Virus record (IMG/VR): IMGVR_UViG_3300042691_015649
Coordinates: 1 to 27,529 of that record
Strand: one strand, 5' to 3'
DNA length: 27,529 bases
Source: a virus
In this document: positions 1,858 through 26,823 of the stretch, piece after piece
Layout of the letters: every line of letters starts with the position of its first letter
Numbering within the stretch: position 1 is the stretch's first letter
Notes under the pieces: model-generated
Database searches by the model: none
What the model was told of the DNA's origin: nothing
Seen by the model: only the letters and a program-made list of their open reading frames with translations
Made by a program: the position numbers and the translations under genes

Positions 1858-4800
1858 TTATCTTCTCAGCGATCCTCCAATTCGTTTTTCGTCGTTGATG
1901 ACTTGCAGCACCGCATCTTTGATCTGGCGAGCAAGTTGTTGACGGTTTGCAGACGCATCTTGTGAACCTTCTTGAGTGGTTTGACCAGATGGTGCTACAT
2001 TGATTGTGATATTTCCAGCAGCACTAGAATCAGAAACCTTAATCAGCTCATCAAGTTTTGCCAAAAGTTTTTCATTGAGTTCTTTGCTTGTTTCTTCTGA
2101 AGTGATGGAAGTTCCACCAGCATTCATGGATTGAAGATTTGGTGCGCCGATGCTTTGAACGGCAGAGCGATTCATTACAAACTCTCCACCAGAAAGCATC
2201 GCTGGAACTGTGTCAATGCCAGAAGTAGAGGGAATCATGCCACCAATCGCCTTGAATAATGGCGCAACTGCTCTTATCCGCGAACTGTTTACTTGTCGAT
2301 TGGTTTCTATGATGTCCTGTAGCTCTTGATTAGATCTATTTTTCATTAGAAACGATGCTCTTTCTGGAGGCATTTTTAATTCATTTGTTAATGTTTCATA
2401 AACAGCCCTTCTTCTGCTCAATTCTATATCAGCCAATGAAAGATTAGATTCTGGAAGATCAGGAAATCTCACTTGCCTTTTGTCAGCCTCACTCATTTTG
2501 CTCGCTGCTCCTCTAGACATCGAAGCATTTTGTCTAGTAGTCGAAAAACGCCCAAGTTCTGGAATAATCGTCGCTCTTTTTGCTCCAGAAAAATCCAATG
2601 CATCTATTCCACCAATATAACCAGCGAATTTAGGATCAGACTGCATTAGTGAAATTAGTTGCTTATCATTTGATATTTGCGATAGTTTAAATTGATTGGC
2701 TGCACCAGTAAAATTACCCGTTAAACCTTTTCCAACACCACTAAACAAATTATTAAGACCGCCAACTTGTTGACCAAGAACTTTTCCACCAGTAAAAATA
2801 CCTTTTGCTCCAGCCAATAAAGATTGACCTATTGTTGCCCCACCAGCTTTAGCTGCTCCAAATGCAGCTTTAGCCCCAGCTCCCGCAGCTCCAAGGACTG
2901 GACCTAACGCAGCGCTCGCAGCCAGCATGATAAGTTGATTTCTAAAGGCTTTCTTTTGTGCTTTTTCTTGTTTTTTCGCTTCTTTTTCAGCATTATACTG
3001 TTGCAGATATAAATCAAACGCTTGTCCTTTGGCTGATTGAGTTGCTTCGAACATTGGAGAATTTCTCATTCCAGAAACAGAAAGTTGAGAACTCTCTGGT
3101 TCAAGAGAGATTGCTTGGTAGCCTGACTCGTTTATGATTTGATCAAATACTCCAGATGTGCCACTTTGTGTAGCGAAATCCAAAAGGTTTCTTTTTCCGC
3201 TGATTGCACCTTGACCAAAAGTTCCTGGGGTATAGAAGTTTCCTTGTGGACCTCTTTGCACCGTTCCACCTTTAGCATATCCAGAGAGCGTACCATTATT
3301 GATGGCTTCTAAGAATTGTGGACCATATTTTGCGACAGCTCTCTTATTGACAACATATTCGCCGCCCATAAGCATTGCTGGAACATCGTCTTTAGAGCCA
3401 GAGCCACCAGTTACTTTGCCGCCAGAAGCAAACATGTTAGAAAAGAATGCTGCTAATCCACCGCTTGGTGCGCCACCACCAGATGGAACGCTTCCACCAA
3501 CAAGCTTGTCAACCAAGTTGCTCATCATTCTTTGATTGATCATTTTAACGAATTCATAAGCAGCTGAGCGCAGACCATCTTTAAGATCTGTTGTTCCTTC
3601 TATAGCTCCCATGATTCCTTCAATCATGTTGTTTTTAAATTGAACAGAGCCATCGACAATTGCTTGATTGATGTTTAATGCTCTTTCTTCATCGGTTTTG
3701 GTATATTCTTCGGCAAAGAGTTGTCCAAGACCTTTGTTTTGGCGCTGTCTAGCTATTCTAGCTGCTTCAGCTGGAGCTTGACCACTTTGTTGTCTTAATG
3801 TTTCAATATCGTAATTACCTTGAAGAATTTCTTTTCCAGATATTGAGGTAAGTTGTTGTAGCTTGATGTCTTCGATTTTTTGATCAATGATTTGAGAAGA
3901 ATCAAGCAGTGAGCGTCTAAACATTTCTAAAGCGTTAATAACAGGAGGAATAGCTCCAGCCGTTTCTCTATCGGCTTTCGCCGCTGCTTTAGCAGCTTCA
4001 CTTGAAACATCAAATTGTTCAAACATTTTATTCATGTTTTGAATGAATTTATTTAAATCTTCTGTTTTTTGTTTTTCATCTCCTGGAGATGTTAAGATAA
4101 CAGTTTCAGCGAGATTCTTCAATTCTTCTTTGGTTGTAGCTTGATTAATTTCTTGATTAAATTTCTTCCTATTTTCTGGAGTTATTAATTTATTTGCTTG
4201 GATCAATTCTTCACGCAATTGAGTAATAATTTTTTCTTTTTCCAAACCCTGCTCTAAAGCAACGGTATTCTCCTTAATTGCAGCGATTTGTTGGTCAATT
4301 TGTCGAACTTGTGAATCTGACTTTCCAAGCTTCGAAGACTCCAATGCTCTTATTTGCGCTGCATCAGCATTAATAGATCGAGTAGTTGCAATTTCACTAC
4401 GGAAAGACTGAGCCTCTAGCGCTCTTTTTGAAGCTTGGCTAATCAAATCAAGTTGACGAGCTTGTTCTTTATATTCGCCTGTTTGTTGTTGAGTTAATGT
4501 TAAATTGTCTTTTTTAATTTTATTCTCATCAAACAATTTATCCAATGTTATCTTTAGTGCATTTTTTTGTTGTTCATTTAATCCTGAATTTTGCTCCAAC
4601 AATTGACTTGTCTCTTGAAGAAGCGAATTTATTACTTCTCTTTTTTGGAGATCTTCTGCGCTTAAACCATTAAGTTTTTCCTGTAATTTTTGAGCGTCTT
4701 CAGATGCTGCTGTAATTTTTTTAGCTTGTGATATTTGCTCTTGTATTAAGTTCGCGGCTCCATCTTGAAGCTCGCGATCAATTTCACGTAGTGCGATTTG

Positions 4801-7800
4801 ATCTTGTATATTACGCAAAGATGTTTCACTCAAGTTTCCAAGTTCTTGCCCTTTTAATAATTGTTGTCCCAATATGTCATTTTCAAAACTGCGGGCTTTA
4901 GCAATAGAAAGAGCTATAGCATTTTTTAATTTGTCTTGAACTATACTTGTTTTGGTTTGTTCAATAGCTTCTTTTTCCTCAGTTGCTTTTTGCTCGTCAG
5001 CTGATGATAATTGTTTTTTTATATTTTCTATATTAGCTTGTTTTATTTTAGGATCAGAAATTGATTTACTAAAAAATTCATTCAAAGTTTCATCTACTCC
5101 AAAACTAGAAGCAATATCTTCTTGAGATAATTTAGATTTCAAAAAATCAATAGCTTGCGATGGAGATGTTTCTGAAGATATTTTACTTATACGATCAGTA
5201 ATAAATTTTAATAGCTCTTCTCCTTCTGATTCTGTAACTTCTAAACCAGATAAAGCAAACTCTTGAAACTTGTTGTATATTTCATCATAATTCACTCCAA
5301 CTCCTAGACCTTGAGCAATTCCCGATTTTATATCTTCATTTAGCTGCATAGAAAGCCCACCTATACTTGCGGTAGCCAATGTTCTTCCTTCCTTGTCTCT
5401 TATTTTTCTAGCCCCCGAAATTAAATCATCTGCTCTTTTTTCTACAGCTCTTTTTTGAACTGGATTTAATGTATTAAGATTAACTGCTGCTTTTCCAGCT
5501 GCTTCTGCTAATTTTAAATTTGCTTCTGCGGCCTTTTGCAAGCCAATATTATTAGAATCTTGATATTTTGCAAATTCATTTAAAGCGGTATAAGCTCCAA
5601 CGGCAACAGCTCCATAGATACCTAATTTACTAGCAAATTTGCCAAATCCTTTTTCTGCTCCACCAAGAGCTTGTGATAAGCCCTGCCCAGCAAAAACGAC
5701 CGTAGATGCTGAGCTTGCTACCTCTCCAAAACTATTAGCAAATTTTGCAAATCCATTAGTTGCCCCTTCGGTCGCTCCAGTCAAAGCTGTCATAGCTCCT
5801 TGAACCGCAAAAATAACCCCAAGCATATCCCTGCCTCCTCCAGAATTTTGAGATGCTTTTTTATTTTCAGCCCTATCTTGCTTTAATTGTTGAGCTTTTT
5901 GGTTTCTGGCAGATATTTCTTTTTCATAAGCATCAATTAATCCTGCGCCTTGAATTTGTAATCGCTTTTGTTGCGATGCATTTAGTGTCAAGCCATTTGC
6001 AAAATTTTGCATTGCGCTCATTGCTTGAGTATAGCTCATATTATTTTTACGCATTTCAAGAGCTATTCTCTTTAATTCGTCATTAAATTTTGAAACTTCA
6101 GAACTACCTCTGATCGAAGAAGATGGAACTGTAACTTGTCCTATTTGCGGTGCGTAATTCGGTACAAATCCACCAGCAGCACCATACATCATTGGATTTG
6201 CTCCTTCTCTTCTGGCTCGGCTAATACCTTGAAATCCACCAGCTGGTTCATCACGACGATTAGCAACCATCAAACCCATAGGGTTTGCCGCATTCTTCAG
6301 CGCAGGACTCTTATCAATATAAATTTGTGAAGCAGGGACACCAGCAGCCATTTCGCGACCTACTGCTGCTTGGAGTGGATTGGCGAAGTTGGGAAGGAAG
6401 CCGCCAGCAGCATTATCTCTTTTATATTTTTCAATCTGTGCCAATAGCTGTTGATAATATTTTGGATATGCAGCTTGCATTTCTGGATCTGCTATCAGAG
6501 CTTTTTCAAAAGCTTGTCTGTGTTTGTTTTTTGCTGGTCTCTTCAACTCCGCTGTAAAAAACTTAGCGTCAGACGGTTTCATTTTAGTTAAACCAGAAGC
6601 CTCTACTGAATCTACCACACCATCTCCCAAATATTGATCAATCAACAGCTTGATAGCAGCTTGTCCCAATCCTTTGGCAATTTGCAACGCTGTAAATTTA
6701 CCCCCACGATTAGATGGTCCTCCAGCAAAATTAGGAATAAAACCACCAGCAGCTGTTGCTGTTTGTTGAGATTCTTTTTGTAAAATTGATCCAATTATTG
6801 ATCTTGCTGGATCAGAAACCTTAGTTAATCCAGCATCAATTATTCCTATTCTAGCACCTTTAGAAGCCATTTGCTTCAATACAGAGAGCGCTCCAGTAGC
6901 ATCCTGTGGATAATTTTTTAATTCTCTTATTTCTTTTGCGGCACTTTCATTAACAGTGTAATTAGAGCCATGCAAATCTCCAATTGACAAGCCTTGAGTT
7001 TTTAATGCGTTAAACAGGACAGTCGATCCAAACATTCTTGCGACATCTCCGCCCACTGCATTTCGTGCTAATTGGTCAGAAACAACCTCCTTGCGAATAG
7101 CTTTTTTGCGGATAGAATCTTGAAATTTCGAAAGATTTTTTGGTCCAAAGACAGCTGGTATTTTTACATACTTGCTTAAATATTCCGCGACCAACCACTC
7201 AGCCTGAGCCGCTTGACTAAAGCCATCTTTGACAAATTTCTTAACTCCAACTTCGACACCATCCTTGTTACCCAATCTATAAAAAGTTCCTTGAAGACCG
7301 CTCCCAATTTCTCTTGATTTAGAAACAAAATTAGGGATGAAGCCACCAGCAGCATTCGCGGCTTTTTGTGCTTTAGAAAGATCAAATGCTCCTTGGCTCC
7401 GCAAAGATTTAACTGCGCTTGAACCATATTCAGAATCATTAAAAATCTTTTTAATAATACCCTGAACTTGTTTTGACGAACTAAAGTTTTTCTCACCGCC
7501 TCTTTTTGCCTCACCTCTTTTAGCATTTACGCCAAATACTTTTCGCAATGCTTCTGGATTTTGGAAATCAAATGGCCTGTTCTGTTCGCCAGAACCGAAC
7601 AAAGATTCTAAATTTGCAAAACTATTAAGAGCCACCTTTCCAGCAGCTTCAAACAGGTCGCCTTGCGCAGCTGGTGGCAGTAGCTGTTGCTTTCTGGAAG
7701 CATCCAAGGATTGCAATTTGCTAGAAAATTCTCCACCGCTTGCTGGATCAAAAGTTTCTCCATAAAGTCTATACGCAAGTTTTACAATACCATCCGAAAA

Positions 7801-10800
7801 TAATTCATTAACATCTGCTCGTAAAGACTTCAAATCTCTACCGCTTGGTGTATTGGATGTTTTAATACCAGCCAGTTTGATGTATTTGTTTTTATCAATA
7901 GGCGGCGACTTATCTTGATTAAAGAATGGTATCTCGCCAATTTGCATTGACGTATCTAATGAACCTTGACCTTTGCCAAATCTTGGCGATACCAGAAGGA
8001 TTCCTCCAAGAGCATCAGCGTTAAGATTGAAGAATCCTTTTTCTTCTATCTTTTTTTCTTTAATTTGTTGATTAGCGACAGCTTTCGATTGTGTTCTGGA
8101 TAGAACATTTTTGATTTGAGATCCATAGCCGCCAGTTCCATCTGGAAATTGATAAAAGTCTTTTACTGGGTCTTTATATTTTTGAATTTCGTCAGCATAT
8201 TTTCTCACTGTTTCGGCATTAAACTTTGGCGCGAAGTTTGGAATAAAACCTCCAGCAGCATTTACCAATCTTTCTGAAAAATTCAAACTTGTATTTAACT
8301 TGGTGTCAGATGGAATTATTAATCCAACCTTTCCAGTTATACGATCAGTCTTCTTATTTACTATAGAAGCTTTTGACAAAAAAGAGTTTGCATATTTTCT
8401 AACAATTTCATGAAGATTTTGAGACTTTTTAGTTTTAACCTCATTATCTCCGCTTAAATCAAAAAATGCATTTCTATCATTAATTTTTTGACCAGTTAGT
8501 TTTGATGCATCTATTTCTCCAAGAACTCCTTTAACTTTACCTTGCAGACTTAACCATGTTTTTTGATTAGCTTTTGTGTCATTTGGATCTAAAGTCGCAT
8601 TTTTAATTTGATTTTCAATTCCTTGAACAGCGGAAGGATCTGCTCCACTACTCAACCATTGTTTTTTGTAAAAATCTAAAGCAGCAACATCAATTTCTTT
8701 GCCAGTACTTATTCCAAATTTTTTAAAAATATAAGGGACTTTTATCTCATTTTTTGAAAAATCTGTTTTGCCAAGTATGCTATTAGCTCTTTTATTGTAT
8801 GATGAAATATTGTCATCTTGCCTAATGACATTAATAATGCTTTTGAATTGATCATACGGGTCTGCGTTAATCGCATTCTTTAGTTTTGCATAAGGCTTTT
8901 TAGAAAAAGATTCTGCTGTAGTGAAACCTGTTTCAATAATTTCTTTTTTATTTTTATTCGCAAAATTTGGAACCAATCCTCCAGCCGCATTGATTTTCTT
9001 TGCTCCCGATGGCAATCCCATCGACTGCACCATGCGTCTATTAAACACAGCAGACCCACCACTTCCATTAAAATTCGGTACAATATACTCACCAGTATGA
9101 GCGACCATCGTTCCCTTTTTACCACCACCGAAATTAAAGTTTGGCATCACGACTGGCTTATCACCTGCGCGAGCGCCACCTACTCCTTGTCTGATTGCTT
9201 TGCTTTCTTTGGCAACTGCTGGCATATAGCCGTCAGCACTATTACCAACGCGCAAACCAGAACCAGTTGCTCTAGCTCCGACATTATAAAGTGGTGCTGC
9301 TAATCCAGAGGAAATATTCGCACTTCTACGAAGAAGAGCTTCTTGTTCAACTAATGCGCCAGTAATCACTCTCAGCTGTGCAGCTCTATTACCCTCCAGC
9401 GCAAACAACTGCTGTTGAAGGTTTACGTTCTTTGCTAAAATTTGAGAGATTGCTCCCTCGACATTCTGAACTTCTTTAGCTGCCTTACCAATTCCAAAGA
9501 AAGCTTTCAAGCTAGCAAATCCAAACTGCACCAAATCTTTTGAAAGTTTAAGGATAATAGCTCCGAATAAAGCCAATCCAGGTCCAGCTAAAAAGCTTCC
9601 AAGACCCTTGACAAGTCCACGAACCAAATTGCCCAATCCACTTTCTTCGCCTAAAACTTTTTGAATTCCTTCGAGCAAGTTATTGAAAAATCCCAAGACA
9701 TTCTTTAAGCTGTCTGTTACGCCAATTTCACCAAGTTTCGCGCCAAGCTGTTCAGCATTTACGGCAACTTTGTTCAATAAAGCGGCGAGCGTTTGATTTA
9801 AGATGATATTTTTTTGGTATGCAGAGTTACCAGCTTCACCTGCGACTTTTAACGCTCCAGCCGTCACAGACGCTTCAGACGATAAATCTTTCAATGCCGA
9901 CAAAAGTTTATCCAACTGGAAAACGCCGCCAAGTTTTTCGGCAATGTCAGCTTGCTCAATTTGAGAAAAGTTATTTAATTGTCCAGCAAGATTTTCTAAA
10001 ATTCGTAGCGCTGGCAATACATTTCCTTGAAGGTCGGTAACTGCAACGCCCATGTTCTGCAAATCAGAAAGAACGTCTTTTCTTTGGATTCTCGCGAAAA
10101 TTGTTTTAAAGCTGTTGCCGATAACAGCGCCACCTCTAGCAGTTGTCTGCTGAACTGCCGTAATAACTGCCGCCAATTCATCAAATGAAACTCCTGCTTG
10201 TTGAGCAACAGAAGCAGAACGCTTAACGCCTTCGATAATATCTCTTTCCGATACTGCGTATTTTTGAGAAACAGCAACAACTTTATTAAGAATCTCTGCT
10301 GTTGTGATTCCAGACTTCTGGAACGAGTTGAATGCAGCAGTCAAACCCTCAACAGACTGCGCAGCATCCAAACCAGAAAGCCGCGAAAGAATCAGAGCGT
10401 CATTCAATCGAGCGAGTGTATCTTCTGCACTCAAACCTTGACGAGCTAATTCCAATGCACCACTAGCAACTTCATCAAACGATTTGCCAGTATTTTTTGC
10501 TACATTGAAAATTTGCTGTCCAAACTTATCAAGTTCAGCACCGCTTTTATTTAAAACAGAATTGATTTCTGTAAGACTTTTTTCTACTTTGATCGTGCTG
10601 GTAAGAAGTCCAGACATAGCTTTGGAAACACCAGCGATAATACCAGCAGAAGCTCCGAACGCCAAAACACGGGCATTTGCTGCTGCCATGGATTTAGTGA
10701 ACTCATCTGCTTGACCAGTAATTCTACCCAATGGTTGGCTCAACGCATTAATTTGCCTTGAATTCGTCCCCAAATTGATTTGCGCGGAGCTGCCAACACG

Positions 10801-10869
10801 CTTCATTGCAGCGGCAATACTTTGCTCCAATCCGACTTGAGTAACTTGTATTTGAATAGACTGTGACAT
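1858..10869 (-). CDS. Giant tail tape measure protein with embedded cargo-like domains
   Basis: 3003 residues. The tape measure fills the tail tube, sets tail length and is ejected during infection. Residues about 70-290 match the TP901-type phage tail tape measure core (ARVLAFGASAGIIAGVSKAM and SFDEVASGALELARQGLS). Hydrophobic stretches occur near 430-460 and in the Ala/Gly-rich stretch near 2650-2720. Residues about 1576-2450 are Gln/Glu/Lys-rich and largely helical or coiled. Six close copies of an AAGGFIPNFA-type decapeptide start at residues 627, 870, 1172, 1372, 1486 and 1563 and delimit unrelated segments, among them a kinase-like segment and two PD-(D/E)XK-like ones, listed separately. 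A second repeat (VPAML.GGE.V.N) lies near 2496 and 2888, with a relative near 590. The start is supported by AAAGGAG two bases before ATG, the clearest Shine-Dalgarno-like site in the window. At 0.15 nm per residue the full length would give about 450 nm, less if the cargo is globular. Confidence 0.93.
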   Translation of the reverse strand: MSQSIQIQVTQVGLEQSIAAAMKRVGSSAQINLGTNSRQINALSQPLGRITGQADEFTKSMAAANARVLAFGASAGIIAGVSKAMSGLLTSTIKVEKSLTEINSVLNKSGAELDKFGQQIFNVAKNTGKSFDEVASGALELARQGLSAEDTLARLNDALILSRLSGLDAAQSVEGLTAAFNSFQKSGITTAEILNKVVAVSQKYAVSERDIIEGVKRSASVAQQAGVSFDELAAVITAVQQTTARGGAVIGNSFKTIFARIQRKDVLSDLQNMGVAVTDLQGNVLPALRILENLAGQLNNFSQIEQADIAEKLGGVFQLDKLLSALKDLSSEASVTAGALKVAGEAGNSAYQKNIILNQTLAALLNKVAVNAEQLGAKLGEIGVTDSLKNVLGFFNNLLEGIQKVLGEESGLGNLVRGLVKGLGSFLAGPGLALFGAIILKLSKDLVQFGFASLKAFFGIGKAAKEVQNVEGAISQILAKNVNLQQQLFALEGNRAAQLRVITGALVEQEALLRRSANISSGLAAPLYNVGARATGSGLRVGNSADGYMPAVAKESKAIRQGVGGARAGDKPVVMPNFNFGGGKKGTMVAHTGEYIVPNFNGSGGSAVFNRRMVQSMGLPSGAKKINAAGGLVPNFANKNKKEIIETGFTTAESFSKKPYAKLKNAINADPYDQFKSIINVIRQDDNISSYNKRANSILGKTDFSKNEIKVPYIFKKFGISTGKEIDVAALDFYKKQWLSSGADPSAVQGIENQIKNATLDPNDTKANQKTWLSLQGKVKGVLGEIDASKLTGQKINDRNAFFDLSGDNEVKTKKSQNLHEIVRKYANSFLSKASIVNKKTDRITGKVGLIIPSDTKLNTSLNFSERLVNAAGGFIPNFAPKFNAETVRKYADEIQKYKDPVKDFYQFPDGTGGYGSQIKNVLSRTQSKAVANQQIKEKKIEEKGFFNLNADALGGILLVSPRFGKGQGSLDTSMQIGEIPFFNQDKSPPIDKNKYIKLAGIKTSNTPSGRDLKSLRADVNELFSDGIVKLAYRLYGETFDPASGGEFSSKLQSLDASRKQQLLPPAAQGDLFEAAGKVALNSFANLESLFGSGEQNRPFDFQNPEALRKVFGVNAKRGEAKRGGEKNFSSSKQVQGIIKKIFNDSEYGSSAVKSLRSQGAFDLSKAQKAANAAGGFIPNFVSKSREIGSGLQGTFYRLGNKDGVEVGVKKFVKDGFSQAAQAEWLVAEYLSKYVKIPAVFGPKNLSKFQDSIRKKAIRKEVVSDQLARNAVGGDVARMFGSTVLFNALKTQGLSIGDLHGSNYTVNESAAKEIRELKNYPQDATGALSVLKQMASKGARIGIIDAGLTKVSDPARSIIGSILQKESQQTATAAGGFIPNFAGGPSNRGGKFTALQIAKGLGQAAIKLLIDQYLGDGVVDSVEASGLTKMKPSDAKFFTAELKRPAKNKHRQAFEKALIADPEMQAAYPKYYQQLLAQIEKYKRDNAAGGFLPNFANPLQAAVGREMAAGVPASQIYIDKSPALKNAANPMGLMVANRRDEPAGGFQGISRARREGANPMMYGAAGGFVPNYAPQIGQVTVPSSSIRGSSEVSKFNDELKRIALEMRKNNMSYTQAMSAMQNFANGLTLNASQQKRLQIQGAGLIDAYEKEISARNQKAQQLKQDRAENKKASQNSGGGRDMLGVIFAVQGAMTALTGATEGATNGFAKFANSFGEVASSASTVVFAGQGLSQALGGAEKGFGKFASKLGIYGAVAVGAYTALNEFAKYQDSNNIGLQKAAEANLKLAEAAGKAAVNLNTLNPVQKRAVEKRADDLISGARKIRDKEGRTLATASIGGLSMQLNEDIKSGIAQGLGVGVNYDEIYNKFQEFALSGLEVTESEGEELLKFITDRISKISSETSPSQAIDFLKSKLSQEDIASSFGVDETLNEFFSKSISDPKIKQANIENIKKQLSSADEQKATEEKEAIEQTKTSIVQDKLKNAIALSIAKARSFENDILGQQLLKGQELGNLSETSLRNIQDQIALREIDRELQDGAANLIQEQISQAKKITAASEDAQKLQEKLNGLSAEDLQKREVINSLLQETSQLLEQNSGLNEQQKNALKITLDKLFDENKIKKDNLTLTQQQTGEYKEQARQLDLISQASKRALEAQSFRSEIATTRSINADAAQIRALESSKLGKSDSQVRQIDQQIAAIKENTVALEQGLEKEKIITQLREELIQANKLITPENRKKFNQEINQATTKEELKNLAETVILTSPGDEKQKTEDLNKFIQNMNKMFEQFDVSSEAAKAAAKADRETAGAIPPVINALEMFRRSLLDSSQIIDQKIEDIKLQQLTSISGKEILQGNYDIETLRQQSGQAPAEAARIARQRQNKGLGQLFAEEYTKTDEERALNINQAIVDGSVQFKNNMIEGIMGAIEGTTDLKDGLRSAAYEFVKMINQRMMSNLVDKLVGGSVPSGGGAPSGGLAAFFSNMFASGGKVTGGSGSKDDVPAMLMGGEYVVNKRAVAKYGPQFLEAINNGTLSGYAKGGTVQRGPQGNFYTPGTFGQGAISGKRNLLDFATQSGTSGVFDQIINESGYQAISLEPESSQLSVSGMRNSPMFEATQSAKGQAFDLYLQQYNAEKEAKKQEKAQKKAFRNQLIMLAASAALGPVLGAAGAGAKAAFGAAKAGGATIGQSLLAGAKGIFTGGKVLGQQVGGLNNLFSGVGKGLTGNFTGAANQFKLSQISNDKQLISLMQSDPKFAGYIGGIDALDFSGAKRATIIPELGRFSTTRQNASMSRGAASKMSEADKRQVRFPDLPESNLSLADIELSRRRAVYETLTNELKMPPERASFLMKNRSNQELQDIIETNRQVNSSRIRAVAPLFKAIGGMIPSTSGIDTVPAMLSGGEFVMNRSAVQSIGAPNLQSMNAGGTSITSEETSKELNEKLLAKLDELIKVSDSSAAGNITINVAPSGQTTQEGSQDASANRQQLARQIKDAVLQVINDEKRIGGSLRR
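6800..7325 (-). other. Protein-kinase-like domain in tape measure (residues about 1183-1357)
   Basis: The segment between the third and fourth decapeptide repeats carries the ordered hallmarks of a kinase fold. A glycine-rich loop REIGSGLQGTFYRLG (Gly1189-Gly1194) is followed by a strand VEVGVKKF with Lys1210 in the place of the VAIK lysine. A catalytic-loop-like SIGDLHGSNYTV has Asp1298 and Asn1303. A DFG-like IGIIDAGLTKV has Asp1345 but Ala in place of Phe. The length (about 170 residues) is short for a eukaryotic-type kinase and closer to compact RIO, ABC1 or aminoglycoside-kinase-like forms. All metal and ATP residues appear present, so activity is possible but unproven. Confidence 0.6.
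7495..7680 (-). other. Second PD-(D/E)XK-like segment in tape measure (residues about 1064-1125)
   Basis: Between the second and third decapeptide repeats, QGDLFEAAGKVAL places Glu1074 in a helix. RPFDFQNPE gives Asp1101 after a strand, and RGEAKRG gives Glu1120-Ala-Lys1122. The order helix Glu, strand Asp, ExK again fits the PD-(D/E)XK nuclease plan, with an Asp to Glu distance of 19 residues. The match is weaker than for the preceding segment because the ExK strand is very basic and glycine-flanked. Confidence 0.35.
8425..8535 (-). other. PD-(D/E)XK-like segment in tape measure (residues about 779-815)
   Basis: Between the first and second decapeptide repeats the protein reads GVLGEIDASKL, then FFDLSGDNEVKTKK. 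Glu785 lies in a predicted helix, Asp804 follows a hydrophobic strand, and Glu810-Val-Lys812 forms an ExK. This spacing is the usual layout of the PD-(D/E)XK nuclease fold. It is a motif reading only; the flanking residues are not recognisable. Confidence 0.4.
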
Positions 10870-14948: not shown

Positions 14949-16058
14949 ATGGCAAGAAATCGAATCATTTATCAATCGGAAGGTGTATACATCAGCAAAG
15001 AAGCTACCTCTACAGGTAGTGGTGATCACGCCCAGCTTTCTCGCGTTCAGTCCGCGAACTACAATTTCAACATCGCTCGTCAGGACGTTAACCAATATGG
15101 TGAGTTGGCTCGTATCGACTCTATCGTGCTGGAATCTCCTACCGTGTCTTTCGACATGAGCTACTACATTACTGATGGCGCGAATGAAGCTGCCCTTGGT
15201 TTCTATGTGGCGACTGGCGCTCAAGCATTTTCGCAGTTCCCCTCGGGTCACGTTCAAGACGGTAGCGGAAGAAATCTTTATGTTGTAACTAGTAATGAAG
15301 GTACAGACCTTAACAACTTCAGTGGAGCATCCAGCTTGAGTGGTAAAGGTTGCATTGGCGTAGGTAACGCTTATCTTACTGATTACTCGATTGAATTGGC
15401 AGTCGGTAGTATTCCTACCGCTACAGTGAGTTTTGAAGGCTCTAACATGAACGCTTTCACATTCAGCGGAACTAACTCTGGAACAATCGCTGCTATTAAT
15501 CAAGAATCTGGTACCGCACTTAATTCGGTAATCCGCCTTAAAGAGCCAGACAGCTTTACTGGTGCTGGCGTTGTTACAGCTCTTCGCCCAGGTGATGTTA
15601 CAATCAACTTTGGTACTTGGAGTGGTAGCGGCTTGATTTCTAAACTTGGTGGTAATGATGGCGCTCACCTTCAAAGTGCTAGCTTGTCGCTTCCTCTTGG
15701 TAGAACTCCTATTGAGCGTCTTGGTTCGAAATTTGCTTATGCTCGTACGGTTGACTTCCCAGTGACTGCTACTTTGACACTCAATGGCGTTCAAAACGAA
15801 GTTGCTGGTGGCAATCTTGTCGATTTGGTCAACGCCAATCCAAAACAAGACATCATCATTTCTGTTAAAAAGCCAGGAACTGATACTCTTGCTGTTCAAT
15901 ACGTTATCAAACGTGCGCAGCTTGATTCTGCTAGTATCTCTAGCTCGATTGGCTCGAACAAAACTGCCGACTTTACGTTCTCAACTCAAATCGGTGGTGC
16001 TAATGATACGGACAATGGTATTCAGATGAGCGGCAGCTTCGCAACTGCCCCTTTTTAA
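14949..16058 (+). CDS. Major tail tube protein
   Basis: 369 residues in the zero frame. It is Ser/Thr/Gly/Ala-rich and beta-rich, with no long hydrophobic segment, as expected of a tube-ring protein. A central block (YLTDYSIELAVGSIPTATVS) and a later block (LSLPLGRTPIERLGS) recur in the second tube-like gene next to the tape measure. Codon use looks biased towards a restricted set of codons: the antisense strand is stop-free over almost the whole gene, a by-product also seen opposite the capsid gene, consistent with high expression. The last codons GCC CCT TTT before TAA form a slippery site and the -1 frame continues to 16135 (separate entry), giving a possible 395-residue long form. The leader is A-rich without a Shine-Dalgarno site. 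Confidence 0.75.
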   Translation: MARNRIIYQSEGVYISKEATSTGSGDHAQLSRVQSANYNFNIARQDVNQYGELARIDSIVLESPTVSFDMSYYITDGANEAALGFYVATGAQAFSQFPSGHVQDGSGRNLYVVTSNEGTDLNNFSGASSLSGKGCIGVGNAYLTDYSIELAVGSIPTATVSFEGSNMNAFTFSGTNSGTIAAINQESGTALNSVIRLKEPDSFTGAGVVTALRPGDVTINFGTWSGSGLISKLGGNDGAHLQSASLSLPLGRTPIERLGSKFAYARTVDFPVTATLTLNGVQNEVAGGNLVDLVNANPKQDIIISVKKPGTDTLAVQYVIKRAQLDSASISSSIGSNKTADFTFSTQIGGANDTDNGIQMSGSFATAPF

Positions 16059-16135
16059 TTAGCCCTTCTGAACCTCCAGAGCCACCAACTCCAACTTATA
16101 TTAATCCATTTGACATTGTTGGTGCGTTTGCATAA
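16049..16135 (+). other. Candidate programmed -1 frameshift and C-terminal extension of tail tube protein
   Basis: The heptamer CCCTTTT (16049-16055) matches X XXY YYZ in the zero frame (C CCT TTT) and lies directly before the TAA stop at 16056-16058. After a -1 slip the frame reads LISPSEPPEPPTPTYINP and then FDIVGAFA before TAA at 16133-16135, 26 added residues with a proline/glutamate linker. The +1 frame is closed at once by TAG at 16060-16062. The extension fills the space up to the terminator, and the nearest ATG lies past it, so a separate gene is unlikely. Tail tube proteins of phages SPP1 and PSA are known to have longer forms made by frameshifting (+1 in those cases). Confidence 0.65.
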
Positions 16136-16189
16136 AAATTAAAAAAAGGGGGTTCTGGAAACAGAACCCTCTTTTCATTCAGAAGGGCT
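16061..16189 (+). repeat. Perfect 12-bp inverted repeat enclosing a terminator
   Basis: AGCCCTTCTGAA at 16061-16072 is the exact reverse complement of TTCAGAAGGGCT at 16178-16189. The arms enclose 105 bases that hold the frameshift extension and the terminator hairpin. The left arm starts five bases after the slippery heptamer, the usual distance for a stimulatory structure. In RNA the arms could pair only on transcripts that read through the terminator. Confidence 0.7.
16144..16175. terminator. Rho-independent terminator after the tail tube gene (bidirectional)
   Basis: GGGTTCTG (16150-16157) pairs with CAGAACCC (16162-16169) around a GAAA tetraloop. Pairing continues outward through a G-T pair, a G-C pair and an A-tract facing a T-tract (CTTTT), giving up to 14 paired positions. 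A-rich and T-rich flanks make it work in either direction. It lies nine bases after the stop of the frameshifted tube form. Confidence 0.85.
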
Positions 16190-16223: not shown

Positions 16224-17180
16224 ATGCCAATCACAATAAGCTATAACGAATTTACAACACAAACAGGCGATATGCCTTCTGGTGCATCTCAACCATATCA
16301 GTATAGTGGTATTAAATCTGCTATTTCTGATTTAGATGCAGATGATAGAACAATTATTTTCACGAATCTTCCAAGTGGATTAGAAGTAGTTCAAACATTA
16401 AGTACCGAACCATTCGATAGTGTTTTTATAGATATTGCTCAATATGATGATTATATTTTAATGAAGCAGCTCAATGATCAATGGCAATCAAGCGGTGTAT
16501 ATTCTGGATTTGCTGTCGCTTATACTTCTGGAGGCTTTTGGGCGGCTGGAGAGATTAATGGCAATTCTCCAGGTACAATATTAACTGGAGCAGGTAATGA
16601 AAATTCTTCTATTTTAGATATTTCTTTTAATGGAATTGACTATATGAATACTACTTTTACTAGAACGGAGCCAGAAGAATTTACGTCCATCTCTCTAGAA
16701 AGAGGCAAAAAATATACGCTTGATGGTGATGGTTCTTTATTTTATCTACATTCGAATTCACAAGTTAACTTTTATCAAAATGAAAACTATAGCTGGTACC
16801 CAGTGCTAGTTGAGACTTCCGTTATTAACTCTGGTATTGTCATCACTGGACTTTCTTTTAATTCAGTTGCATCTTCTGTAAATCTTCCTCAGAGTGGAAT
16901 TTTTGAAGTTTACTGGAGTGGCGATCAACTAAACTATGCAGAAAGAAGCACCCTAATCGCTCCAGCGCCATTTCAAAGTTCGAGTTTAGCAGAAGGATAT
17001 GGATGGAACGCTACATACGCAAATGAGAATTTTAGTTCATACAATATCCTATCCAATAATTCTGGAAATACTGGGACGGCTGCTATTCAATTAAATGCAG
17101 CAGCTACCAATGGAGAGCAATTTACAGATCTAATTATTCCGCTGAGAAAATTGTACGTCACATTTACTGACAATCCATAA
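16224..17180 (+). CDS. Unknown probable virion protein isolated between two terminators
   Basis: 318 residues, Ser/Asn/Gly/Tyr-rich, low in charge and probably beta-sandwich in nature (RTIIFTNLPSGLEVVQTL, TFTRTEPEEFTSISLERG). There is no signal peptide and no recognised family. The composition resembles surface-exposed phage decoration or fibre-like proteins. It is the last gene of the plus block, preceded by the 16144-16175 terminator and followed by the 17187-17215 terminator, so it looks like an independently transcribed moron-like unit or one served by read-through from the tube gene. The leader AAAAACAAAAAAA directly before ATG has no Shine-Dalgarno site. Confidence 0.5.
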   Translation: MPITISYNEFTTQTGDMPSGASQPYQYSGIKSAISDLDADDRTIIFTNLPSGLEVVQTLSTEPFDSVFIDIAQYDDYILMKQLNDQWQSSGVYSGFAVAYTSGGFWAAGEINGNSPGTILTGAGNENSSILDISFNGIDYMNTTFTRTEPEEFTSISLERGKKYTLDGDGSLFYLHSNSQVNFYQNENYSWYPVLVETSVINSGIVITGLSFNSVASSVNLPQSGIFEVYWSGDQLNYAERSTLIAPAPFQSSSLAEGYGWNATYANENFSSYNILSNNSGNTGTAAIQLNAAATNGEQFTDLIIPLRKLYVTFTDNP

Positions 17181-17186
17181 TTCATT

Positions 17187-17215
17187 AAAAAGGCGCTGTT
17201 TTCACAGCGCCTTTT
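17187..17215. terminator. Bidirectional terminator between convergent genes
   Basis: GGCGCTGT (17192-17199) pairs perfectly with ACAGCGCC (17204-17211) around a TTTC loop, flanked by AAAAA and TTTT. It lies six bases after the plus-strand gene ending at 17180 and 22 bases beyond the end of the minus-strand connector-like gene, so it serves both. Confidence 0.9.
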
Positions 17216-23751: not shown

Positions 23752-26700
23752 TTAATCAACAAACATTGGGACAAATGTAGCTTGAACAGATGCCTCTGGT
23801 GTCGCCATCATGTCGAAGTAGATGTTCATTAACCAATTGCCAAGAACCAAAGCTGAATAAGAGTCTTTTCTTGCCTTGTCAGCGTTACGCTGTTTCTTGA
23901 GGTTATATGGTAAATCAAATGATTGGGAGCCATTTGCTGTAGTTGATACTTGTATAAGTGCGCATTGGACTTTCGTGGCATCAATTGTGTCTTTCAAATG
24001 CTCAATTAGGTCGATTTGTTTGGCGTATGAGTCGCCTTCATCATTGTATCGCGAGAATGTAATCTCATCAATAGGAATCGCCGCTGACTTTTGCCGCGAA
24101 TAATCGTCATCCAAAGCTGTTCCTGCAAACCAAATCTTTTTATGATCGAAAGCAGATTGAAGCATCTCATTTGCTGATCGAATCCACGATGAACTTGGCT
24201 TTCTAAGTATGCATATCTTCTTTGATTCTACATTGTATTGATTTCGGGCAACGCGCAAATCTGTATTGTAGCTTTGGGGGTCATCAAAATCAACGTCCAT
24301 ACATTGTATTTGGATTCCAGCTTTCTTAAAGATTTCACTTTCGTTGCAGGAGTTGAGAAACTGAACGCCACCGTTATAGTCACCCACAATCATACGAATA
24401 TTAAAGTGGGTATATAAATAATGGAAGTAAACAATATGCTTTTTCAAGTTGGCTCCTGCCAAAGCATACGAATGTACTATAGTTCCACTGCGTTTGTCAG
24501 CATTTAACTTGATAACGTGCATTGCGAAGTCGTCGGAGCCTTCGCTCTCTGACCACGATGGGTCAAATGACAGTATGTATTCGCTGCTTTTATCGCCTAC
24601 TACCTCTACTGATTGACCTTCACCATCAGGAACGGTGCAAGCTGCCATTTTGCTAACCTTAAAGTAACCAGAGCTATCATCTGTGAAGATTGATCCAAAC
24701 TCTCTTTCAAACTGCGCCTCACTCATTGTCGCTTTAGACTGATCTAAAAGGTTTTGATCGTAAAGTTGTTTCGGGGCGCAATCATAGCTCAAGTGCATAA
24801 TCACTCGATGAGCATTATCTTGTTTAGATGGATTGAGAATAAGGTTTTCGTATTGTTGGTAAAGCTTGTATAGATACTCAAACTTATAAGAAGCAGAAGA
24901 AAGACCAATAATCTTGTTATGTGGCCATTTGTGACGTTCTTCTTCAGTCATCTTACCAGCAGCAATCATTTTTGTTTCAAGATCGTAGATCTTTTGACGC
25001 TCTGTAGGATTCTCCACAACTGCCAAGAAAGGAAGAATAACTTCATTAATAATTTTCTCTGGCATCAAAAGAAGCTCGTCAATAATCATTCGCTGGAAAC
25101 GAAAGCCCCGAAGCTTTTCTCCATCGCCAAGAGGCAGAGCAATGATTTTACTACGCCCAATTTCCATAACCCACTGGTCATTGGACTTGCTGACTCTAGT
25201 AATACATTGTGATAAGAATGCCGCTTTTGGACTCTTCGCAATCTCTTCGATCTTGTTAAAGATCATTCGACTCTGACGGAAAGACTTGGATATGATGCCA
25301 ATATAAACACCCTGGTTTAAGATAGCATCCATTGCCGCGAAAATACCCGTAGTGAAAGACTTGGACAGACCCCTCGAATTATGATGCACAATACCGTTGC
25401 CGATATAACACTCTTCATTTTCTACAGTAATATCCACTGATCTTACTTGGCAAGGCGTAATAGTTTTTACCACAGAAAACGAAACCCGCTCTTCTTTAAT
25501 TGAATCAATAATATATTTAGTATCTTCTGACAAACCTTGGAGATTATCCAATTCATTTTGAGAGAAACCTATTCCCCATTGCCCCTTTTTCCCACAGAGC
25601 TTTTCACGTGAACCTTCTTTTTTTAGTAATTGTCCAAATCTTGGTATCAGTTTATTTTGGTAGTTTCTTGAGCTAGATCTATCAATGATTTTTTGAAGAT
25701 TGGATTTTTTATGAGAAACAATAAAGTCTATTTCTGCTTGAAATTTCTTTAAGCTAGAAACGTCATTTGTTAATACTAGATCATAATAAGGCACATCATT
25801 GTGTTGCCCAGAAAGCCTCAAATTAGATTCCACTCCCAAGTTATTTAAAAGCATTTTTACTTGACGCAATAATTGAAGAGATGTGTTTTTTAATCCTACT
25901 TTACTATTGTTTGGTTGAAAAGATGCATATCCATCCGCATCAAATAATCCACCAATTAAAGCGCATAGATTTCCTTTTTCTGTGGCTAAGATTTGATCGC
26001 AGATTAGTTTATCTTTTGATTTTAGAGATTTATCCCAGCCTATTGATTCTAATGCTTTAACCAATTCTCGATTAAATACCGAATACTCGTAGAAATTTAA
26101 ATTAGCGTTGCGTTGACGAGCATACATTTTAAAATCATTAGCTTGTGTAAATTTCAAGATCGCTTCTTGAATTTCATAATTTTCCGAGCAATAGTGAACT
26201 CCATCTTGATTGAGATAACCATCGCCCAAAACATATCCCAGCCAGTAGAATAAGTGCTGCTTGTTTTTGAAATTAAAATCTTTAAAAATATCCTGGTTTC
26301 CCCAGACATCTGTTCCCAATTTTACTGGAACAATGTCTCCTTCTTTAATATTTTGAATCTCTTCAAATTGAAACTGAAAATTTCTGAAAACAAGAGTTTT
26401 ATGTCCAATTTTAGCCTTAAATGAATCGCCAGATTTCAGGGTTATTTCTAGTCCATCTTCCAGTGGGTTAATTCTTTTGTCTGTGACTAAATTGAGCTGC
26501 TCGCGAGAACGAACCATTTCACCAACTTGAATATCTTTAATTTTTTTGAACCCATTTTCAGTTAGTACATATTCATCTTCCGCAAGACACCATATCCCCA
26601 AAAAGTAATCTGTTTCCATCATAGCCTTAATTGCCATGTGCTGGAATGGAAACAATGAAATGCCTGAAATAAGCTCAGAAGTGAATGATGGATTCTCGCG

Positions 26701-26823
26701 CAAGAACTTATACAAAAGAACTTTCGCCTTTTCTTCTTCAAGGAATCCTTTTGTGTCTAGGATTTCTTGGTTTACATTTTCGAATTTCTTATGTAAGATT
26801 TGATGTCCTTTTTCCCACGCCAT
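23752..26823 (-). CDS. terL: Terminase large subunit, interrupted by an intein
   Basis: 1023 residues: exteins 1-78 and 483-1023 (619 residues after splicing) and an intein at 79-482. After splicing the P-loop region reads LGIWSRGLSKSFTTG, an adenine-motif-like LFPFQHMAIKAMM lies before it, Walker B is FQRMIIDELLL (near residue 580) and the coupling motif is GLSSASYKF. The nuclease half has acidic residues in ILSFDPSWSES (near 753), MIVGDYNGG (near 814) and a later DDDYS/IPIDEITF region (near 900-915). It cuts and pumps DNA into the prohead through the portal encoded next. The P-loop has SKS where GKS or GKT is usual. It starts two bases after the ERCC4 nuclease stop, and the leader lacks a Shine-Dalgarno site. 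Confidence 0.93.
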   Translation of the reverse strand: MAWEKGHQILHKKFENVNQEILDTKGFLEEEKAKVLLYKFLRENPSFTSELISGISLFPFQHMAIKAMMETDYFLGIWCLAEDEYVLTENGFKKIKDIQVGEMVRSREQLNLVTDKRINPLEDGLEITLKSGDSFKAKIGHKTLVFRNFQFQFEEIQNIKEGDIVPVKLGTDVWGNQDIFKDFNFKNKQHLFYWLGYVLGDGYLNQDGVHYCSENYEIQEAILKFTQANDFKMYARQRNANLNFYEYSVFNRELVKALESIGWDKSLKSKDKLICDQILATEKGNLCALIGGLFDADGYASFQPNNSKVGLKNTSLQLLRQVKMLLNNLGVESNLRLSGQHNDVPYYDLVLTNDVSSLKKFQAEIDFIVSHKKSNLQKIIDRSSSRNYQNKLIPRFGQLLKKEGSREKLCGKKGQWGIGFSQNELDNLQGLSEDTKYIIDSIKEERVSFSVVKTITPCQVRSVDITVENEECYIGNGIVHHNSRGLSKSFTTGIFAAMDAILNQGVYIGIISKSFRQSRMIFNKIEEIAKSPKAAFLSQCITRVSKSNDQWVMEIGRSKIIALPLGDGEKLRGFRFQRMIIDELLLMPEKIINEVILPFLAVVENPTERQKIYDLETKMIAAGKMTEEERHKWPHNKIIGLSSASYKFEYLYKLYQQYENLILNPSKQDNAHRVIMHLSYDCAPKQLYDQNLLDQSKATMSEAQFEREFGSIFTDDSSGYFKVSKMAACTVPDGEGQSVEVVGDKSSEYILSFDPSWSESEGSDDFAMHVIKLNADKRSGTIVHSYALAGANLKKHIVYFHYLYTHFNIRMIVGDYNGGVQFLNSCNESEIFKKAGIQIQCMDVDFDDPQSYNTDLRVARNQYNVESKKICILRKPSSSWIRSANEMLQSAFDHKKIWFAGTALDDDYSRQKSAAIPIDEITFSRYNDEGDSYAKQIDLIEHLKDTIDATKVQCALIQVSTTANGSQSFDLPYNLKKQRNADKARKDSYSALVLGNWLMNIYFDMMATPEASVQATFVPMFVD
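25378..26589 (-). mobile_element. Intein with LAGLIDADG homing endonuclease in the terminase
   Basis: 404 residues, from Cys79 (CLAEDEYVLTENGFKKI, splicing block A) to Asn482 in GNGIVHHN (block G with His481), followed by Ser483 as the +1 nucleophile. Block B has His141 in KIGHKTLV. Two LAGLIDADG motifs, WLGYVLGDGYL (Asp201) and LIGGLFDADGY (Asp297), mark a DOD-family endonuclease. Insertion is directly before the P-loop, a conserved active-site position as usual for inteins. Departures from consensus: block B has Lys instead of Thr three residues before His141, and block F reads VENEECY with Glu where His is common. Key cleavage residues are present, so splicing is likely. The endonuclease part is more AT-rich than the exteins. 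Confidence 0.92.

Follow-up and report, generated by a model that had tools for sequence, protein, structure and literature searches.

A conserved -1 frame extension at the stop codon of a phage tail tube gene, and a proposed tail-decoration cassette

The closest described systems are phages whose virion proteins are extended by frameshifting, here summarised from the accessible parts of the respective reports. In SPP1, gp17.1 is lengthened by an FN3 domain of 87 residues through a +1 shift at CCCUAA, and the tube contains gp17.1 and gp17.1* at about 3:1 (PMC6316719). In lactococcal 936 phages, a +1 shift at CCC.UAG yields the fusion MTP-TpeX, which adds about 22.6 kDa and occurs in 21 of 90 phages (PMC4759559). 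The Listeria phages PSA, A118 and A500 extend virion proteins with Ig-like domains, the shift in the major tail gene being +1. In T3, T7 and Lactobacillus phage A2, virion proteins are extended by a -1 shift; that of T7 gene 10A/10B depends on a distal element in the downstream terminator, over 200 nt away (PMC5009743).

Here, I describe a locus in which a short peptide, encoded in the -1 frame beyond the stop codon of a tail tube gene, is conserved together with an RNA stem and a separate downstream gene. The window, that is, the whole stretch of DNA that was analysed, is an entire virus record of 27,529 bases.

The tail tube gene and the frame beyond its stop

Three features are needed at the outset.

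14949-16058, + strand: major tail (tube) protein of 369 aa, assigned to the T5 pb6/P74-26 double-domain type (ORF, AlphaFold model, Foldseek, VIA-align)
16049-16058, + strand: candidate slippery site and stop, C CCU UUU UAA, with the invariant core U_UUU (16052-16055) and UAA (16056-16058) (conservation)
16055-16135, + strand: -1 frame extension of 26 codons, a putative linker and C-terminal tag (translation, conservation, motif scan)

Judged by its modelled fold, the first gene encodes a major tail tube protein with a duplicated tube domain (about 360 residues), the match spanning nearly the whole protein. The AlphaFold model, made from a 51-row alignment, has a pLDDT of 77 and a pTM of 0.77; with it, Foldseek gave a best E of 4.6e-12, to T5 tail proteins, and VIA-align gave Z 19.1 for the P74-26 tube (303 residues aligned, rmsd 4.2) and Z 18.7 for the T5 tube (299 residues aligned, rmsd 3.9). 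The window's tube protein has no match in Pfam or PHROGs at cut-offs of 0.1 or 1e-3, and PDB sequence profiles gave weak, implausible matches only; none of 50,697 phage records was matched by the tube or the capsid in tblastn, and among 15 tube relatives there are weak PHROG matches to minor or major tail protein. The last aligned residue of the model, 365, pairs with residue 356 of T5 pb6, whose Ig-like domain, in the accessible text on its structure, faces outward with a domain boundary at 374 (PMC8718954). Residue 365 thus ends just before the Ig-like region of pb6, and the extension would therefore occupy the place of T5's constitutive domain.

A first search yielded 18 tube relatives, and a wider scan 377, of which 80 were kept, with four more in MAG contigs labelled Flavobacteriaceae, Flavobacteriales, Verrucomicrobiales and Neomarinimicrobiota. 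Elsewhere in the window, the tape measure gene (3003 aa, 1858-10869, - strand) holds six copies of an AAGGFIPNFA-like motif over residues ~628-1572, and the terminase large subunit (23752-26823) has an intein-like insert (25378-26589, - strand; residues ~79-482) that starts CLAEDEY and ends VHHN before S. Inspection by eye of the adjacent 253-aa and 323-aa genes revealed no obvious frameshift site between them.

The tube reading frame ends GCC CCT TTT TAA. As the sequence-only reading of this DNA had stated, the -1 frame stays open for 26 codons after this stop, encoding LISPSEPPEPPTPTYINPFDIVGAFA followed by a stop codon of its own, and the +1 frame closes after one codon (within one to four codons across the six loci described next). 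The open frame had been offered there as evidence; such openness is, however, at chance level, for at least 20 open codons follow the stop in 48 of 87 extension-free homologous tube loci, counts which omit 15 duplicate loci and L016 (cut off, without a stop). It is conservation that rules out a chance open frame as the full explanation. Homologous -1 extensions of 20-26 codons occur in six contigs, namely the window, L001, L003, L004 and L005, the last four being among the first 18 relatives, and L035, which was added by a profile scan with the downstream gene; their tubes are 54-94% identical to the window's, and among the wider relatives scanned the extension is confined to these six. Indels within the peptide are multiples of three and none of the six copies contains a stop, so the frame singled out by the sequence-only reading is borne out in relatives. 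Comparison of the four closest members gives 105/129 identical amino acids and 0 stops for the -1 frame; the two remaining frames score 82/123 (15 stops) and 77/123 (45 stops). Five of the six close pairs have a -1 frame pN/pS of 0.16-0.25, the sixth, window and L003, reaches 0.66, and values for the nine distant pairs range from 0.49 to 1.03. The -1 extension is thus real, conserved and under purifying selection.

The same comparisons bear on the notion that the frame is the decaying remnant of a broken, formerly in-frame fused tail. Ig-like tails of phages do occur in or out of frame, according to the accessible part of one survey (PMC5009743), yet the six copies share the out-of-frame junction, lack stops, vary by in-frame indels and have a low pN/pS in most close pairs, and no in-frame tag on the tube was found among the 108 tube rows scanned, duplicates included; a relic is hardly credible.

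Within the peptide, L1, S3, P4, S5 and E6, and later F, G and A, are invariant in the six contigs, and the window and L001 extensions are 83% identical. The proline-rich part, which had been taken for the point of the tail, proves to be a variable linker, the conserved part being the C-terminal F[DGS][IV]xGA[FL].

At the stop codon, the invariant element is U_UUU_UAA: T TTT TAA is found in all six extension loci and in none of the 87 other tube loci. The heptamer CCCTTTT proposed earlier is indeed present at 16049-16055, but as the determinant it is not supported, and it was rejected as an essential motif, since C_CCU_UUU occurs in only four of the six loci (window, L001, L003, L005), L004 having A_CCU_UUU and L035 A_GUU_UUU. 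Since L004 has a stop in its -1 frame 13 nt upstream, a shift there could take place only within the last codons. By itself U_UUU_UAA is insufficient and not diagnostic, because the tube paralog of L001 (L163, gene end at 1602) also ends CTT TTT TAA without a conserved -1 extension. In E. coli, U_UU.U is listed among the more efficient tetramers, given a stimulator, in the accessible text of one study (PMC4066793). The ribosome could slip while UUU occupies the A site, or once UUU has moved to the P site and UAA is next to be read; both routes lead to the identical product and are indistinguishable from sequence. Taken with the conserved peptide, the claim made at first sight, that a programmed -1 shift at the tube stop adds a short tail and not an Ig or FN3 domain, is well supported as a prediction, the tail being of 20-26 residues.

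A long-range RNA stem around the extension

The RNA downstream of the slippery core holds three further elements, each recognised by folding and by pairing across relatives.

16061-16072, + strand: 5' arm of the basal stem (AGCCCUUCUGAA), starting 5 nt beyond the slippery core and doubling as codons for S-P-S-E
16144-16175, + strand: inner hairpin, its loop mostly of GNRA type, covarying in relatives
16178-16189, + strand: 3' arm of the basal stem (UUCAGAAGGGCU), 122 nt past the start of the stop codon

The two arms form a long-range stem of 12 bp, inside which lie the extension codons and the inner hairpin. It begins 5 nt after U_UUU, or 6 nt in L005, where pair 1 is unpaired. Of 72 basal cells, 68 are paired, namely 12/12 in four loci and 10/12 in both L005 and L035. 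The only double change is from U-A to C-G; that changes in the 5' arm are few can be put down to the arm being coding as well. The inner hairpin has 8/8 pairs in all six loci and several double changes. Shuffled 3' arms matched as well as the real arm in 0/500 trials in four loci, 14/500 in L005 and 1/500 in L035, and the fold z-score of the region after the stop, relative to shuffles, is -7.6 in the window, -7.9 in L005, -5.6 in L035 and -8.2 in L004. The S-P-S-E codons are nearly invariant at the nucleotide level, and later codons vary synonymously; because SPSE is absent from the tags of the tube paralogs described below, it is probably kept for the RNA, the tag proper being the C-terminal part. 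The position of the stem fits a stimulator of a -1 shift, and stimulation is what is predicted of it.

Two other readings of this RNA have to be weighed. The extension had been said to end nine bases before a terminator. A strong hairpin does begin 9 nt after the stop of the extension, but "terminator" may be an incomplete name for it, as the hairpin sits inside the longer conserved stem and a simple terminator scan calls it on the - strand only, not on the + strand. The inner hairpin could be simply a terminator: with the U-rich stretch after it, it resembles terminators, and cassette-free sister phages carry a terminator at the same place. That the whole structure acts as a terminator or as an RNA processing signal between the tube gene and the next, with the -1 frame untranslated, is nevertheless very unlikely in view of purifying selection on the -1 peptide and of the in-frame reappearance of that peptide, with synonymous differences, on another protein (see below). 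According to the other reading, RNA polymerase would add a U within the run of T, to the same product. A run of five to six T before AA is present in all six extension loci; that is short for known transcriptional slippage, which moreover would have no need for a conserved stem at ribosomal spacing, and this origin is highly improbable. Ribosomal -1 slippage at the tube stop remains the preferred reading.

The downstream gene and tags on the tube paralog

Three more features concern the surroundings of the extension.

16224-17180, + strand: cassette gene, 318 aa, predicted all-beta, hypervariable, proposed ligand of the tag (homolog in all extension contigs; model pLDDT 69.5)
17188-17215, + strand: intrinsic terminator closing the cassette (terminator scan; the flank shared with the cassette-free L002 resumes at 17186)
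1-127, - strand: tube paralog gene, first 42 codons, its C-terminus lying beyond the window (comparison with relatives)

A gene of one family (309-346 aa) lies directly downstream of the extension in 6/6 contigs and at 0/87 other tube loci, 83 of which have at least 600 nt of downstream sequence; these counts include kin, with 78 distinct ends among the 87 and five of the six extension rows in one clade, so that Fisher p-values overstate independence. When 10 whole contigs were searched with a profile, the gene turned up only in the four that have the extension; scanning again with a broader cassette profile brought no further members. A candidate in L068, with GTAGCCCTTC after the tube stop, was rejected: it lies within an ordinary terminator and is without the cassette gene.

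In the tube tree, L035 stands beside L057, and the window, L001 and L003 group with L002 and L006; the trait needs four changes. L035 and L057 are 94.8% identical in both flanks, between which 84 bp in L057 correspond to ~1.25 kb in L035, a clean replacement that takes in the last tube codons; the alignment of the window with L002 breaks likewise. The sisters L002/L006 and L057, which are without both extension and gene, show that the extension, the stem and the gene are gained and lost together, as one cassette. Between the window and L001, the cassette protein is 39% identical, the tube 94% and the next gene 96%. The cassette protein has no match in Pfam or PHROGs (cut-offs 0.1 or 1e-3). Its model is all-beta, of modest to low confidence; a fold search gave nothing below E 1e-3, and the best structural match, the N-terminal region of the CBA120 tailspike TSP4 (Z 7.9, 89 residues aligned, rmsd 2.7), is within noise and below the tool's trust level. 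The terminator closing the cassette, compared in the window, L001, L002, L003, L004 and L021, has the same stem, but its loop reads TTTTC in the window and L004 and GAAAA in L001, L002 and L003, the pattern that an inversion of the hairpin would leave.

Searching 11 contigs with a profile of the extension returned the six extensions and two further places, the C-termini of proteins of 386 and 390 aa in L003 and L005. These are tube paralogs (BLASTP E 8e-24), positioned after the minor tail gene. The C-terminal half of the extension (YISSFDIVGAFA-like) closes both in frame, in lineage-matched variants: in L003 the tube extension ends PTYISSFDIVGALS and the paralog STYISSFDIVGAFA, in L005 the tube extension ends SFYAEFGIYGAFAPSV and the paralog GAYYEPFSIMGAFAPAF, the two tags of a phage being more alike than tags of different phages. 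In the L003 pair, 6 of 11 same-residue codons differ synonymously, so it is the peptide rather than the DNA that is kept. The shared tag is evidence, drawn from sequence only, that the out-of-frame extension is translated. Paralogs with this tag, here called tag-1, are also present on contigs L174 and L189. When 251 loci (1.68 Mb) were scanned for the motif in all six frames, only these 10 distinct places, six extensions and four paralogs, turned up, each one to four residues before a stop, the shuffled expectation being 0.25 matches and 0.05 near a stop. The linked gene and the recurrence of the tag on the paralog both go beyond the sequence-only reading.

One survey of paralog ends covered 16 of 30 loci, L001, L003, L005 and L035 among them. 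Of the contigs in which both tube locus and paralog could be read, tag-1 is borne by the paralog in 2/4 with the cassette and 0/11 without it (p 0.057). L003 and L005 combine the cassette with a tag-1 paralog, and L001 and L035 combine it with a W-tagged paralog that has a fibre-like gene of its own. This second, W-type ending is LWQNITVNW-like (e.g. SLWQNITVNWSDL). In a survey with 37 of 79 loci read, each W-type paralog with sequence beyond the gene is followed by a fibre-like gene (20/20 rows, 14/14 distinct); one more W-type row stops at the contig edge, and L058 is an additional W-type case with such a gene. The fibre-like genes start MNLGP or similar and have sub-threshold similarity to BppL_N and to an ice-binding beta-roll. 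No such following gene is found after tag-1 paralogs (0/4 distinct) or untagged ones (0/7: L175, L176, L201/202, L203, L145, L147, L148), hence 0/11 against 14/14; this comparison omits L193, an untagged paralog which a gene nevertheless follows, and the group L204/L206/L210/L211/L214, which has another paralog tail, mostly YINESINP, and a different downstream gene in 5/5.

Other observations on these paralogs may be added. The fibre-like gene right after a W-type paralog is of 198-981 aa in L163, L164, L165, L166, L167, L168, L169 and L170. The third ending, YINESINP (L204, L206, L210, L211), goes with a MSKRISDVTEATRID-like or similar gene. In L146, L150, L151, L152 and L154, taken from 43 records picked by length or kinship, the paralog has long C-terminal parts joined to it in frame (~650-880 aa or more for the whole protein), as though these phages fused a ligand rather than docked one.

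The best account, and a fairly probable one on these comparisons, is that of a swappable tail-decoration cassette at the 3' end of the major tail gene, the -1 shift tagging a minority of tube subunits for docking of the cassette protein. Most ribosomes would stop at UAA and yield the plain tube protein; some, presumably a minority, would slip back by one base on U_UUU at the stop, aided by the long-range stem, and add 20-26 residues. The front of the extension would serve as a linker, its SPSE codons doubling as the 5' arm of the stem, and the last ~12 residues as the docking tag. Through this minority of tagged subunits, the cassette protein may be displayed at intervals along the surface of the tail, serving as a decoration or possibly an adhesin. 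In two phages the paralog encoded after the tape measure bears the tag constitutively and would thus hold the same ligand there too. The wider proposal is put forward with a little less assurance, the balance being somewhat in its favour: a two-part, horizontally swappable decoration, in which shifty stop and stem set the dose of the tag, a hypervariable protein docks in trans, and tags are swapped on the paralog to mix ligands rather than fuse adhesin domains.

Alternatively, the frameshift is real and the tag binds something else, such as the neighbouring tube ring, the tape measure or the host surface, the downstream gene being unrelated, co-travelling cargo. Binding of the tag to the cassette protein is indeed inferred, and L001 and L035 have the cassette yet a paralog with another tag; against this stand the strict co-occurrence of extension and gene in six contigs of two lineages, and the pairing of W-type tag and fibre-like gene as a parallel system. 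I regard this alternative as rather unlikely, and docking of the cassette protein as the better account. If the latter is true, frameshifting would set the stoichiometry of a docking peptide, not of an appended domain, and phage tails would carry a modular peptide-tag code by which adhesin-like proteins are exchanged with the tube left untouched. With candidates named for the tag, its partner gene and a second tagged protein, the question of why tubes carry frameshift tails becomes open to a concrete test.

Comparison with known systems

Comparisons made here are limited to what the accessible parts of the published descriptions contain. As in SPP1, a major tail protein would be extended by frameshifting at its stop codon, giving a mixed tube; in SPP1, unlike here, the shift is +1 and the FN3 extension is itself the adhesin, and those parts describe no partner gene or shared tag. 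The 936 phages likewise have a shifty stop ending the major tail gene, an adjoining accessory element and a tail decoration, but the shift is +1 and joins the downstream gene itself to the tube, whereas here that gene would be translated separately. In other words, the tube gene and a shift at its stop are shared with the SPP1/PSA/936 type, and the +1 direction and the folded Ig, FN3 or carbohydrate-binding domain are not.

The Listeria phages and A2 also extend virion proteins by frameshifting, A2 by -1, but the extensions are Ig-like and the Listeria tail shift is +1; a second frameshift case in A2 is reportedly a tail protein. T7 10A/10B, with the slippery sequence G_GUU_UUC, resembles the present locus in a -1 shift in a major virion gene with a distal element; it differs in being a capsid gene, for which the accessible text describes no docking tag and partner gene. 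T5 pb6 has the duplicated tube domain and a C-terminal addition protruding outward at the same position, which in that phage is an in-frame Ig-like domain on every subunit.

A literature search, with most subscription papers outside its reach, found no system like this one. To sum up, extension of a tail tube protein at a shifty stop is already known from SPP1 and the 936 phages; new are the predicted -1 direction on a T5-type tube, the long-range stem, the tag of 20-26 residues, the proposed partner gene acting in trans, and the reuse of the tag on the tube paralog.
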